DNA of 64,000 bases from Flavobacteriales bacterium (GTDB lineage: Bacteria > Bacteroidota > Bacteroidia > Flavobacteriales_C > GCA-002722245): positions 62,001 through 126,000 of the forward strand of contig JAHEZL010000005.1 in the NCBI GenBank assembly GCA_023251095.1, read 5' to 3'. The translations under genes and the position numbers were made by a program. Below the pieces are notes generated by a model that had not been told where the DNA came from, did no database searches, and saw nothing but the letters and a program-made list of their open reading frames with translations. Below, in pieces: positions 20,622-51,518 of this stretch (positions are counted from its first letter, which is position 1; every line of letters starts with the position of its first letter).

Positions 20622-20738
20622 GTCATTGCGAAATTTTTGTACTCAAAAATGAAGCAACCGCATTACACTTTCTAATTTAAAGATTACTGAACCATTATGA
20701 GTTTGCTTCATTTTTGAGTACAAAAATTTCGCAATGAC
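20622..20738. repeat. Nested inverted repeat, element E3 (gene-less relative of the GIY-YIG cassette)
   Basis: A perfect 36-bp inverted repeat (20622-20657 with 20703-20738) around a 45-base AT-rich centre. The arms are identical over 36 bases to those that flank the GIY-YIG gene at 51095-51518. Each arm contains the palindrome ATTTTTG-N4-CAAAAAT (20633-20650 and 20710-20727). Just outside the right end is a short echo of the terminus (GCAATGACGTAGA, about 20748-20760). It lies between two convergent genes and may also stop transcription from both sides. Confidence 0.9.
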
Positions 20739-20780
20739 GTAGAAGAGGCAATGACGTAGATGTTATAATGATAAGTGGGA

Positions 20781-47047: not shown

Positions 47048-47136
47048 GAACCAAAAATAAGAGCTCTTTTAGTTTATTGACCCGCGCTTTTATTATTCGT
47101 AGCTTTTTCGTGTGGAAGTGTTTTTTATCTTTGATT

Positions 47137-50100
47137 ATGTTGAAGAGAATAGTAAAGGAAAGCATACATAAAGTACGTCATTGCGAGGAACGAAGCAATC
47201 GTATCGTGGTTGATACGATTGCTTCGTTCCTCGCAATGACGTTCAGGGTAGTTCTCACTCTAATGCTGTTCACTCAACTCTCCTATTCTCAGGCATACAA
47301 CTTTCGCAATTATTCGGTTAAAGACGGCGTTGCACAATCGCAGGTATACAGCTTGCTGCAGGATTCCCGCGGTTTTTTGTGGATGGGCACCCGCGGCGGC
47401 GGGATCACGCGCTTTGATGGCGTAAATTTTAAAACCTATAGCGTTCGCGACGGACTCATCAACAACTACATTTTCAATATTAAGGAAGATGCCGAGCATA
47501 ATTTGTGGATAGGCACCAACGACGGCTTATCGAAGTACAATGGTATCCGCTTCGAAAATTTTAAACCCAAAGGAAGTTCCTCTCAACTGTGGGTGCAGGA
47601 AATTGCTATTGATGCTCACGGCGGAAAATGGCTGGCCACCAATGAAGGTGTGTTTCTTTTTAACAACAATAAATTCATCAACGTCAGCGAAAAACTTAAA
47701 CAAAAAAAAACGGTAATCAACGCCATTCATGTGGATAAAAGTGGCGCTGTATGGTATGGCACCTCGGAAGGATTGTATAAAATAGTTGTGAAAAACGGAA
47801 GCTATTCCCTCGCTAAAAAAGGAAAATCGGCTCGATTTATTTTCAATTCCATAACCGCAGTTAAAGAAGACAACAAAGGAAATATTTATATCGGAACCTA
47901 CGGAAATGGCGCTTACCGCTATAATGGAAAAGAATTTTCACGCATCGATTCCAATGAAATTTTAAACAAACAAACCATTCTAGATATTTATTTCGACAAG
48001 CACGACAATATCTGGATGACCACTTTAGGCAAAGGCGTTGCGCAATACAACACCGTTGCTAAATCACTCACCTGGCTCACTGAAAACGAAGGATTGAGCA
48101 ACAACCATGTGCGCACCATCACACAAGACAACAGCGGAAATTTTTGGTTTGGTACTTCGGGCGGCGGCGTGTGCAACTACTTTGGAAAACAGTTTACCAA
48201 CTACGATAAAACTTCGGGGCTCGCAGGAAATTTTATTTACAGTATTTTTCGCGACAGTAAAAACCGCTTGTGGATAGGCGCTTCTGATAAAGGCGTAAGT
48301 ATTTTGGACAGCGCAGGCTTCACTTCCTTCAACGCACAAAACGGATTTGCGGATGTGAAAGTAAAAGCCATAGCAGAAGATGATTTTGGAAATATTTATA
48401 TCGGCACCGACGGGCAGGGAATTTATAAATACGACTCTACAGGTTTTCATTCTTTGGACGGACTCACAAAAAAATACATCCGCGCCATTGTAAAAGATCA
48501 GGACAGCAATTTATGGATAGCTACCGCCGGCACCGGATTGTACAAGCTTTCTGTTAAAACAGGTTCCAGCACTTATAAAAATTTTACCATTCGCGACGGA
48601 CTTCTCCATAACCGACTCACCACTTTACATCTCGACAAAAAAAATCGTTTGTGGTATGGTACCGAAAGCGATGGCATCGGTTGTATCGTTAACGATTCGG
48701 TGCAAAAAACACAATGGAGCGTTCGCGACGGATTGCGCTCCAATTCCATCCGCTGCTTCGTTGAAGATCAAAACGGTTATTTGTGGATAGGCACCGCCGG
48801 ATCAGGGATTTCATCGGTTCCGCTGTATGAAGGCGATTATAAAATTTCGTCTTACAATCATTCCAACGGACTCACTTCTTCCAACGTTTATTTGTTGTGC
48901 GTGGATCAACTCAACAATTTATTTGTAGGTACCGAAACCGGATTGGATTACATCTATCTGGATAAAATGCGCAAGCCTCTTCAAATAAAACATTACAGCA
49001 AAGGCGAAGGTTTTACGGGAATAGAAACCTGTCAGAATGCAGTGTGGAACGACAACAACGGCACCATTTGGTTTGGCACCATCAACTGCTTATCCAAATA
49101 CAATGCGGCCAACAAAGTGAAAAATGAATATGCTCCCATCATCAGCATCAGCGACGTGAAATTATTTTATGAAAGTATTTCTAAAACAGCTTTCAAAAAA
49201 TTTGCAGGCGACTGGAATGCTGTTAAACATTTGGAATTGCCCTATGATCAAAACCATTTGAGTTTTGATTTCATGGCCATAAATTTCAGCAATCCCGATG
49301 CCGTGAAATACCAATGGAAGCTGGAAGGCTTTGATGACAACTGGTCGCCGGCGAGCAGTGAACATAGTATTTTATATTCCAACTTAAGTGCGGGTTCCTA
49401 CAAATTTATGGTGAAAGCCTGTAACGAAGATGGTGTGTGGAACGCTGAACCTGTAGTGATTTCTTTTACCATTCATCCTCCGTTTTGGATGCGCTGGTGG
49501 TTTATTGCTTTGGTAATTACGGTGGTTGGAGGAAGTATTTTCTTTTTATTCAAGTGGCGCGTAAACAGCATTGAGGCCAAGGCTGCTGCGGAAAACAAAA
49601 AGATTCAAATGGAAAAAGACATCGTGGAGCTCGAACAAAAAGCTTTGCGTTTACAAATGAATCCGCATTTTATTTTCAACGCTTTAAATTCCATTCAATC
49701 GCAAATTGGAACCAACAACGATCAGGCGGCGCGTTATTATCTCGCAAAGTTTTCGCGCTTGATGCGACAAATTTTAGATAATTCCCGCAACACTTTTATC
49801 ACCCTGGAAGAAGAAGCGCACACCATTGAAAATTATTTGCTGATAGAGAAATTTTGTAACGGTGATCGCTTTGATTACACCGTGACTATTCAGGATACTA
49901 TTGAAAAAGATTATGTAAAAATTCCGCCCATGCTCTTGCAGCCTTTTGTAGAAAATGCCATCAAACACGGACTCAAACACATCAACAACAAACGCGGAAA
50001 AATTGATGTGGAGTTCATTGAAAAAAATAATTTACTGGAATGCTCGGTGACGGATAACGGCATCGGACGCGTGAAAGCGGGCGAACTGATTGAAGTGAGC

Positions 50101-50262
50101 AAAGAGACCTATCATAAATCTACTGCCCTTCTGGTAACACAAGAACGTTTGGATTTAATGCAGGAAGATAAAAATGTAAAATCGCTGGAAATTATAGATT
50201 TGTATGACAACGAAGGAAATGCCGGCGGAACTAAAGTGATTGTAAGAATACCGATTTCATAA
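47137..50262 (+). CDS. Propeller-sensor histidine kinase, LytS type
   Basis: About 1041 residues. Reg_prop propeller blades extend from about residue 55 to 660 (repeated motifs DSRGFLWMGTRGGGITRFDG, NLWIGTNDGLSKYN, GNIYIGTYGNGAYRY). A Y_Y_Y domain (FKWKLEGFDDNW-like YQWKLEGFDDNWSPASSE) and one membrane segment (WWFIALVITVVGGSIFFLF) follow. The C-terminal kinase has the H-box LQMNPHFIFNALNS, LLQPFVENAIKHGL and DNGIGR. Partner regulator gene starts nine bases downstream. Start choice: ATG 47137 gives a basic n-region (MLKRIVKESIHK) but a 66-bp in-frame nested palindrome (47176-47241) separates it from the hydrophobic core VVLTLMLFTQLSYSQ. ATG 47236, supplied by the right arm of that palindrome, would give a short clean signal peptide. 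A TATCTTTG box ends at 47133. Confidence 0.88.
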   Translation: MLKRIVKESIHKVRHCEERSNRIVVDTIASFLAMTFRVVLTLMLFTQLSYSQAYNFRNYSVKDGVAQSQVYSLLQDSRGFLWMGTRGGGITRFDGVNFKTYSVRDGLINNYIFNIKEDAEHNLWIGTNDGLSKYNGIRFENFKPKGSSSQLWVQEIAIDAHGGKWLATNEGVFLFNNNKFINVSEKLKQKKTVINAIHVDKSGAVWYGTSEGLYKIVVKNGSYSLAKKGKSARFIFNSITAVKEDNKGNIYIGTYGNGAYRYNGKEFSRIDSNEILNKQTILDIYFDKHDNIWMTTLGKGVAQYNTVAKSLTWLTENEGLSNNHVRTITQDNSGNFWFGTSGGGVCNYFGKQFTNYDKTSGLAGNFIYSIFRDSKNRLWIGASDKGVSILDSAGFTSFNAQNGFADVKVKAIAEDDFGNIYIGTDGQGIYKYDSTGFHSLDGLTKKYIRAIVKDQDSNLWIATAGTGLYKLSVKTGSSTYKNFTIRDGLLHNRLTTLHLDKKNRLWYGTESDGIGCIVNDSVQKTQWSVRDGLRSNSIRCFVEDQNGYLWIGTAGSGISSVPLYEGDYKISSYNHSNGLTSSNVYLLCVDQLNNLFVGTETGLDYIYLDKMRKPLQIKHYSKGEGFTGIETCQNAVWNDNNGTIWFGTINCLSKYNAANKVKNEYAPIISISDVKLFYESISKTAFKKFAGDWNAVKHLELPYDQNHLSFDFMAINFSNPDAVKYQWKLEGFDDNWSPASSEHSILYSNLSAGSYKFMVKACNEDGVWNAEPVVISFTIHPPFWMRWWFIALVITVVGGSIFFLFKWRVNSIEAKAAAENKKIQMEKDIVELEQKALRLQMNPHFIFNALNSIQSQIGTNNDQAARYYLAKFSRLMRQILDNSRNTFITLEEEAHTIENYLLIEKFCNGDRFDYTVTIQDTIEKDYVKIPPMLLQPFVENAIKHGLKHINNKRGKIDVEFIEKNNLLECSVTDNGIGRVKAGELIEVSKETYHKSTALLVTQERLDLMQEDKNVKSLEIIDLYDNEGNAGGTKVIVRIPIS
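47175..47242. repeat. Nested inverted repeat, element E7, inside the kinase gene 5' end
   Basis: A perfect 31-bp inverted repeat (47175-47205 with 47212-47242) with a six-base loop. Each arm contains ATTGC-N10-GCAAT (47180-47199 and 47218-47237). The termini ACGTCATTGCGA match those of E3 and the GIY-YIG cassette, so they belong to one superfamily. It is read through in frame as part of the kinase and encodes RHCEERSNRIVVDTIASFLA, and it holds an ATG at 47236. Confidence 0.9.
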
Positions 50263-51094: not shown

Positions 51095-51518
51095 CGTCAT
51101 TGCGAAATTTTTGTACTCAAAAATGAAGCAACCTCATCATCATTTTTTTAATTTCGCAGCAACTAAACAAAATTTTATGGAAAGAGGTGGCTGGGTGTAT
51201 ATCCTAACCAATAAGTACAATAATGTATTGTATACTGGTGTTACGTCTGATTTAAAAAGCAGAGTATACGAACACAAAAACAAAGTAAATCCAAATTCAT
51301 TTACTTCAAAATACAATGTAGACAAGTTGGTTTATTACAAAGCCTTTAATCGCATTGAAGCAGCGATTGATTATGAAAAAAAGATAAAAGGAGGTTCCCG
51401 ACAAAAGAAAATAAAGCTAATTGAAAGTTTGAATAAACAATGGCATGAAATATCTACCGAAGAGATTTAGTTATGATGAGGTTGCTTCATTTTTGAGTAC
51501 AAAAATTTCGCAATGACG
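51095..51518. mobile_element. GIY-YIG cassette bounded by REPIN-like arms, element E8
   Basis: A 424-bp unit bounded by a perfect 46-bp inverted repeat (51095-51140 with 51473-51518). It encloses a single gene, the GIY-YIG protein, whose stop lies two bases before the right arm. Each arm has the internal palindrome ATTTTTG-N4-CAAAAAT (51107-51124 and 51489-51506) inside a TTGC/GCAA outer pair. The arms are identical over 36 bases to element E3 at 20622-20738, which lacks the gene. The flanks CAGTT (left, 51090-51094) and TTGGT (right, 51519-51523) give no obvious target duplication. The layout resembles RAYT/REPIN elements, with a nuclease in place of the Y1 transposase. Mobility is inferred. 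Confidence 0.7.
51177..51470 (+). CDS. Small GIY-YIG nuclease domain protein
   Basis: A 97-residue protein from ATG 51177 (MERGGWVYILTNKYNN), which fits relatives; the longer open frame starts inside the left repeat arm. The GIY and YIG segments are WVYIL and LYTGV (residues 6-22). The catalytic Arg29 lies in LKSRVYEH and the catalytic Glu67 in IDYEKKIKGGSRQKK. Small stand-alone proteins of this type (YhbQ/URI group) are frequent and multi-copy in Bacteroidota, usually of unknown function. Here the gene is exactly enclosed by inverted arms that recur elsewhere in the window, so a role in spreading the repeat is plausible. It lies between the LytTR terminator and the terminator of the alpha-2-macroglobulin gene. 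Confidence 0.88.
   Translation: MERGGWVYILTNKYNNVLYTGVTSDLKSRVYEHKNKVNPNSFTSKYNVDKLVYYKAFNRIEAAIDYEKKIKGGSRQKKIKLIESLNKQWHEISTEEI

Follow-up and report, generated by a model that had tools for sequence, protein, structure and literature searches.

REPs rank among the most frequent repeats on bacterial chromosomes, and the class marked by a GTAG tag has its transposase. In the RAYT/REPIN systems (REPtrons), tagged REPs enclose one gene, inverted pairs without the gene are dispersed in large numbers, and the stem families are particular to the enzyme, RAYT, an HUH Y1 tyrosine transposase. MITEs and insertion sequences with DDE transposases likewise have terminal inverted repeats around one gene as well as short non-autonomous copies. 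A different link between a protein and dispersed repeats was reportedly described by Chenal and colleagues in Nature Communications in 2025: Ssn proteins, GIY-YIG site-specific single-strand nucleases with thousands of homologues, are said to cut dispersed target repeats (NTS) as single strands in Neisseria, with a link to natural transformation.

Another class of REPs, which includes dRS3 of Neisseria and RPE-4/6 of Rickettsia, carries a CGTC or TGTC tag, unpaired 5' of a palindrome starting with AT (Di Nocera, De Gregorio, and Rocco, 2013; PMC3733652). These repeats occur in many phyla, including Bacteroidetes, and form inverted dimers 20–100 bp apart, some of which are inserted within outer palindromes (PMC3733652, section 7). 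Their discoverers found no transposase gene flanked by CGTC repeats and judged a dedicated transposase to be apparently absent (PMC3733652).

Here we analyze a stretch of 64,000 nucleotides from a Flavobacteriales bacterium (assembly GCA_023251095.1, contig JAHEZL010000005.1, positions 62,001 to 126,000; hereafter, the window), in which a GIY-YIG gene is enclosed by arms that share the tag, the palindrome start and the dimer arrangement of the CGTC class. We consider it probable that this arm-gene-arm unit is a minimal mobile element and that its product is a dedicated nuclease of CGTC-tagged REP palindromes. By analogy, the unit may be a functional counterpart of RAYT and the GTAG REPs that is built on another nuclease fold; like those systems, it combines a single gene with dispersed inverted pairs that lack the gene and match its arms in sequence. 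It is not itself a member of the RAYT/REPIN group, because it encodes a GIY-YIG nuclease rather than an HUH enzyme and has a GTC rather than a GTAG tag. It also differs from DDE elements in that there is no DDE enzyme and each end is itself palindromic.

The GIY-YIG unit of the window

The features discussed below are as follows (window coordinates).

51095–51140, plus strand: left arm, a CGTC-headed palindrome whose head points outward; the tag is GTC, the outer stem is ATTGC/GCAA., and the inner stem is AATTTTTG/CAAAAATG
51141–51176, plus strand: non-coding leader; together with the arm end (CCTCATCATCATTTTTTTAATTT from 51132), its first ~20 nt are similar to spacers found in several gene-less pairs
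51177–51470, plus strand: gene for a 97-aa GIY-YIG nuclease that consists of the bare catalytic domain
51473–51518, minus strand: right arm, identical to the left arm in inverted orientation
20622–20738, unstranded: gene-less REPIN-like pair of the window arm family, arms 20622–20657 (plus) and 20703–20738 (minus), 45-nt spacer
20739–20758, unstranded: outer flank of the gene-less pair; it carries another inverted head (..ggcaatgacg), as outer palindromes of such pairs typically do
47175–47242, unstranded: short-loop pair of the GTCATTGCGAGGAACGAAGCAA family, 20-nt spacer

The two arms are perfect inverted copies of 46 bp, with identity ending at both borders, and the gene (ATG at 51177, TAG at 51468–51470) stops 2 bases from the right one, exactly as a sequence-only reading of this DNA had described them. 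Within each arm, for which an inner palindrome had been claimed, an unpaired CGTC tag is followed by an outer stem (TTGC/GCAA) and then by a 7-bp inner stem; as single-stranded DNA, the arm is predicted to fold with z = -2.8. The flank-to-flank inverted-repeat score at the gene is 92, versus at most 26 in offset windows. Both repeat pairs that the reading had placed elsewhere in the window are also present, and the one at 20622–20738 has 36 bp per arm in common with the gene-bearing arms; no Rfam family matched at this pair. PADLOC, which covers anti-phage defence, returned no match. If translation began at the TTG at 47077, a long ORF (47077–50262) for a propeller-type sensor kinase would read through the short-loop pair; the start actually used probably lies downstream.

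PF01541 is the sole domain match of the encoded protein (56.5 bits, E 3.6e-15), and its AlphaFold2 model is a single confident domain (pLDDT 94.5). Residues Y8, Y19, G21, R29, E67, and N86 are invariant across 50 relatives. The best solved-structure matches of the model are Slx1, HIGLE, UPF0213, UvrC, and I-TevI, with Z up to 7.5 (Slx1), a value that is modest alone but agrees with the sequence family. The fold and catalytic residues are shared with UPF0213/COG2827 (1zg2, 1ywl), Slx1, the UvrC N-domain, and I-TevI, whereas the window protein differs from all of these in being a bare 97-aa domain within a repeat-bounded unit. Given that Slx1 is a nuclease that cuts branched DNA, a structure-specific role on hairpins is plausible by analogy for the window protein.

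Recurrence across bacteria and relationship to known repeats

Homologues of the gene in 60 related genomes are bounded by inverted arms that differ in sequence but share one design, the stem types after GTC being ATTGC..GCAAT, ATTCT..AGAAT, ATCCT..AGGAT, ATGCT..AGCAT, and ATCCC..GGGAT. Matches with arms in a plasmid collection come from Sphingobium, Shinella, and Rhizobium, and also from the Neisseria gonorrhoeae chromosome, which is filed there as a plasmid. In a survey with 106 further genome and viral-contig loci, an inverted-repeat score of at least 32 was reached in 62% of the loci versus 0.36% of 1120 offset windows. We then applied a strict test that calls for GTC followed by a 5-nt stem whose complement lies no more than 45 nt away, with an identical stem on either side of the gene and heads pointing outward. 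Among loci picked by similarity to the window protein's group, 62 of 141 pass, compared with 1 of 1051 offset windows (Fisher p 1e-62); some of the 79 that fail have diverged arms or lie at contig ends. When all 64 head trinucleotides were tried, GTC scored 62 and the next best 15, so that the tag is recovered without being presupposed; with heads pointing inward, the count falls to 17, versus 62 for heads outward. A 6-nt stem version, which is blind to the ATTGC family with its 5-bp outer stem, gave 9 loci versus 1 and was dropped in favor of the 5-nt test. The length of the unit is conserved, with a median of 413 bp. The sequence-only reading had named as support several GIY-YIG copies, each with its own arm family, and it is these that recur widely.

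Two further settings were noted. Among contigs classed as viral (L152–L181), arm-bounded GIY-YIG genes are present in 23 of the 27 with enough flank; a search of phage records for relatives of the window protein found none. On a Planktothrix plasmid (L064), a GIY-YIG gene of the window family has an MmeI-type restriction gene on one side and drmA, a DISARM gene, on the other.

The type of stem follows the type of protein. On a tree of 81 proteins, drawn from the loci picked by similarity, built from few columns and leaving many forks unresolved, labelling each protein as ATTGC or non-ATTGC takes 9 changes, against a shuffled mean of 27 and a minimum of 17, whereas phylum labels change 20 times among the 44 rows of known phylum; the ATTGC stem type was found in 14 phyla. 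Hence the arm type is tied to the protein type and not to the host, a coupling that, as far as these comparisons go, would be expected of a unit that travels whole.

The gonococcal homologue, at 43% identity, has arms GTCATTCCC..GGGAATC and is ringed by dRS3 repeats (GTCATTCCCGCG..CGGGAATC); we take this gene to be ssn. The Ssn/NTS system shares with the window unit a small GIY-YIG protein and dispersed dRS3-type repeats around its gene. The work on Ssn reportedly dealt with nuclease specificity and transformation, to which the present comparison adds the arm-to-arm unit, the gene-less pairs and the phylum-wide coupling. If that account is right, the enzymatic half, i.e., the link between nuclease and repeats, is partly known already, while to our knowledge the arm-to-arm mobile unit, the gene-less pairs, and the arm-protein coupling across phyla are new. 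A literature search with the arm sequence gave no relevant match. The earlier suggestion that the whole arrangement was undescribed has to be withdrawn: the arms belong to the CGTC-tagged REPs (PMC3733652). In addition, a GIY-YIG nuclease of Neisseria that acts on dRS3-type repeats has reportedly been published. The account of 2013 has no dedicated mobility gene, whereas here same-stem arms bound GIY-YIG genes, which revises that statement and not the CGTC REP class.

Arm repeats and gene-less pairs in the host genome

The host genome (3.59 Mb in 43 contigs) has 100 exact sites of GTCATTGCGA..GAAGCAA versus 0 for the reversed control pattern. These ~100 arm copies are mostly arranged as head-out pairs without a gene. 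Apart from a 599-codon GIY-YIG frame, which we take to be UvrC, there is one stand-alone GIY-YIG gene. In the genome stretches fetched, 32 distinct pairs could be delimited, including the gene-bearing one; in all 32, the GTC heads point outward, and the spacers between the arms are mostly 19–50 nt long.

No consistent direct target duplication was found at the borders of the 32 pairs, the exact ancestral site not being among the sequences compared. The 12-nt outer flanks are inverse to each other at 7.53 of 12 positions, versus 5.97 when re-paired randomly (2000 shuffles, maximum 6.88), so that many pairs are enclosed by the two halves of an outer palindrome. These outer palindromes are often themselves headed GTCAT. 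Around many pairs, and at 20739–20758 of the window, they take the form GTCATTRCCCxxxTAC / GTAxxxGGGYAATGAC, which suggests insertion into the middle of an older palindrome.

The leader of the GIY-YIG gene has some likeness to the spacers of gene-less pairs: with the inner repeat included, 9 of 26 spacers lie above the 99th percentile of shuffles, while with the inner repeat removed, the likeness over the 26 spacers is not significant. We therefore rejected the notion that gene-less pairs arose from the GIY-YIG unit by simple deletion, given that only the first ~20 nt are common and the core is not significant.

Window-type arms also surround an unrelated 223-aa ORF of unknown family, with its stop near the right arm, in genome G000 (C20:212126–212894, L187), which is possible cargo. 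Other ORFs are similarly enclosed by arms in G003 (L341, L342).

Copies at unrelated sites and sites with and without the unit

Genome G416 has two GIY-YIG units at a distance of 26 kb, with 77% identity over the stretch that runs from TGTCATTTCG to CGAAATGACA; the alignment extends only a few letters past the arm ends, and the flanks are unrelated. The neighbourhood of one of these units was located in 120 of the 121 genomes of the genus that were searched. At 12 aligned orthologous sites, the unit is present in G416, G526, and G501; among the non-carriers, the site holds a solo palindrome of that family, in fused form, in G314, an ATTGC pair in G551, and one ATTGC repeat in G558, and 6 sites have neither unit nor repeat. 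Both units at unrelated sites and relatives without the gene do occur, the latter having been named as support by the sequence-only reading. The pattern is one of presence and absence of whole units, and by itself does not tell insertion from loss; insertion is favored because only a small number of species in the genus carry the unit. G526 and G501, the carriers of the ATTTC-arm unit, have 129 and 76 dispersed ATTTC repeats, respectively. ATTTC repeats number 39 and 19 in G540 and G519, which may or may not carry the gene. In G526 (C9:166391–167397), many ATTTC repeats are clustered within 1 kb, in alternating orientation and with short and long loops.

Plasmids of Sphingobium and Shinella show a similar pattern with and without the unit; we rejected these as clean ancestral sites and regard them as with/without sites only. 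At three loci (L202, L204, L328), fused solo palindromes with a GTC head at both ends (e.g., TGTCATTTCGAACGAGGTACGAGGAGAAATGACA) lie where relatives carry the whole unit. One suggested reading of these is as footprints or precursors.

Repeats without the gene

Had arm-like repeats been equally common in genomes that lack the gene, the link between the two would have been in doubt. Among 395 genomes of the phylum, tallied by hand from lists, a related gene is present in 37 of the 42 with at least 10 ATTGC-type repeats versus 202 of the 353 others (p 8e-5, uncorrected for kinship), so that for the most part the link stands; one genome is a real exception. G048, a complete genome (C1, L245–L274), carries CGTC repeats of the ATTGC type (416) and the ATNCT type (228), which are often clustered in tandem. 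Its GIY-YIG proteins are UvrC-like or 460 residues long, and a stand-alone gene was not found. Either the gene was lost from G048, or such repeats can persist or spread by other means. Besides G048, four of the 42 repeat-rich genomes are without a related gene.

How the unit might move

The partnership of gene and arms is well supported, and the nuclease likely drives the movement. That it copies the non-autonomous elements, as the sequence-only reading had proposed, we infer, the alternatives being a homing-like route and internal deletion between arms. We hypothesize that the nuclease would recognize the tag and hairpin when single-stranded, e.g., on the lagging strand, and would nick at the tag, such that a strand is freed or opened. 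Repair or annealing could then copy this strand to a new place, with a preference for the middle of an existing palindrome, and the same nuclease would act in trans on gene-less pairs. What counts against the scheme is that GIY-YIG enzymes only hydrolyse DNA, so that the joining must come from another source. Extended across bacteria, this scheme amounts to a mobile class with a GIY-YIG nuclease as its sole protein, which recognizes its own ends of tag and hairpin as single strands, copies itself, serves hundreds of gene-less CGTC pairs in trans, and is an independently evolved counterpart of RAYT/REPIN; this broad version we offer tentatively, with rather more doubt than belief.

The main rival is a homing-like route through pre-existing arms, in which the nuclease makes a cut in a gene-less pair or solo palindrome and recombination between the homologous arms copies the gene into it, the REPs themselves spreading otherwise. 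I-TevI-type GIY-YIG enzymes do home, the window protein matches the fold of I-TevI and shares its catalytic domain, and in relatives a solo palindrome of the same family occupies the site of the gene (G314 versus G416, and Sphingobium TYG64/74 versus TYG46). However, the solo palindromes are equally explained by deletion between arms, the host genome offers ~45 potential recipient pairs and has only one gene, and the spread of the arms themselves is left unexplained. Furthermore, I-TevI has a separate DNA-binding domain and an intron location or fixed homing site, whereas the window protein is single-domain and the units are intergenic at many unrelated sites. We consider homing unlikely.

It is also improbable that the gene is an immobile resident ringed by its targets, with enzyme and repeats serving DNA uptake or genome upkeep in the mode of Ssn/NTS. 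The dRS3 repeats around the gonococcal homologue, and the role in natural transformation that Ssn is reported to have (Chenal and colleagues, 2025), are in line with such a function. Arm-to-arm duplication at unrelated sites and presence or absence at orthologous ones are not, and neither are the frequent changes of phylum on the tree or the copies on plasmids and viral contigs.

Far less credible is the possibility that the palindromes owe their movement to a Y1 transposase (IS200/IS605 or RAYT) or to some other transposase of the host, with the GIY-YIG gene as a passenger. Y1 transposases are encoded in G000 and are common in these genomes, and the arms do enclose other ORFs. Nevertheless, GTC-headed arms were near none of the 20 Y1 loci examined, and no Y1 match was found in G018 (67 ATTGC repeats) or in G048 despite its 416. 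Nor does this scenario predict that stem types go with GIY-YIG types, and no transposase gene is flanked by CGTC repeats according to Di Nocera et al. (PMC3733652).

Finally, accidental flanking of small genes by dense repeats, conceivable where genomes have hundreds of repeats and unrelated ORFs are occasionally enclosed, is refuted as a general explanation by the single positive among the offset windows in the same loci, and we give it practically no credence.

Implications

The mover of the CGTC class was an explicit question left in 2013, and the coupling of arms and gene names a candidate in many phyla. The stem families predict a matching of enzyme and hairpin, which, together with the natural sites with and without the unit, makes the question directly testable. 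If the proposed role of the nuclease is correct, it would put a repair and homing nuclease family at the center of a transposon-like system and would provide many nucleases that are specific for single strands and whose target sequences can be read off.
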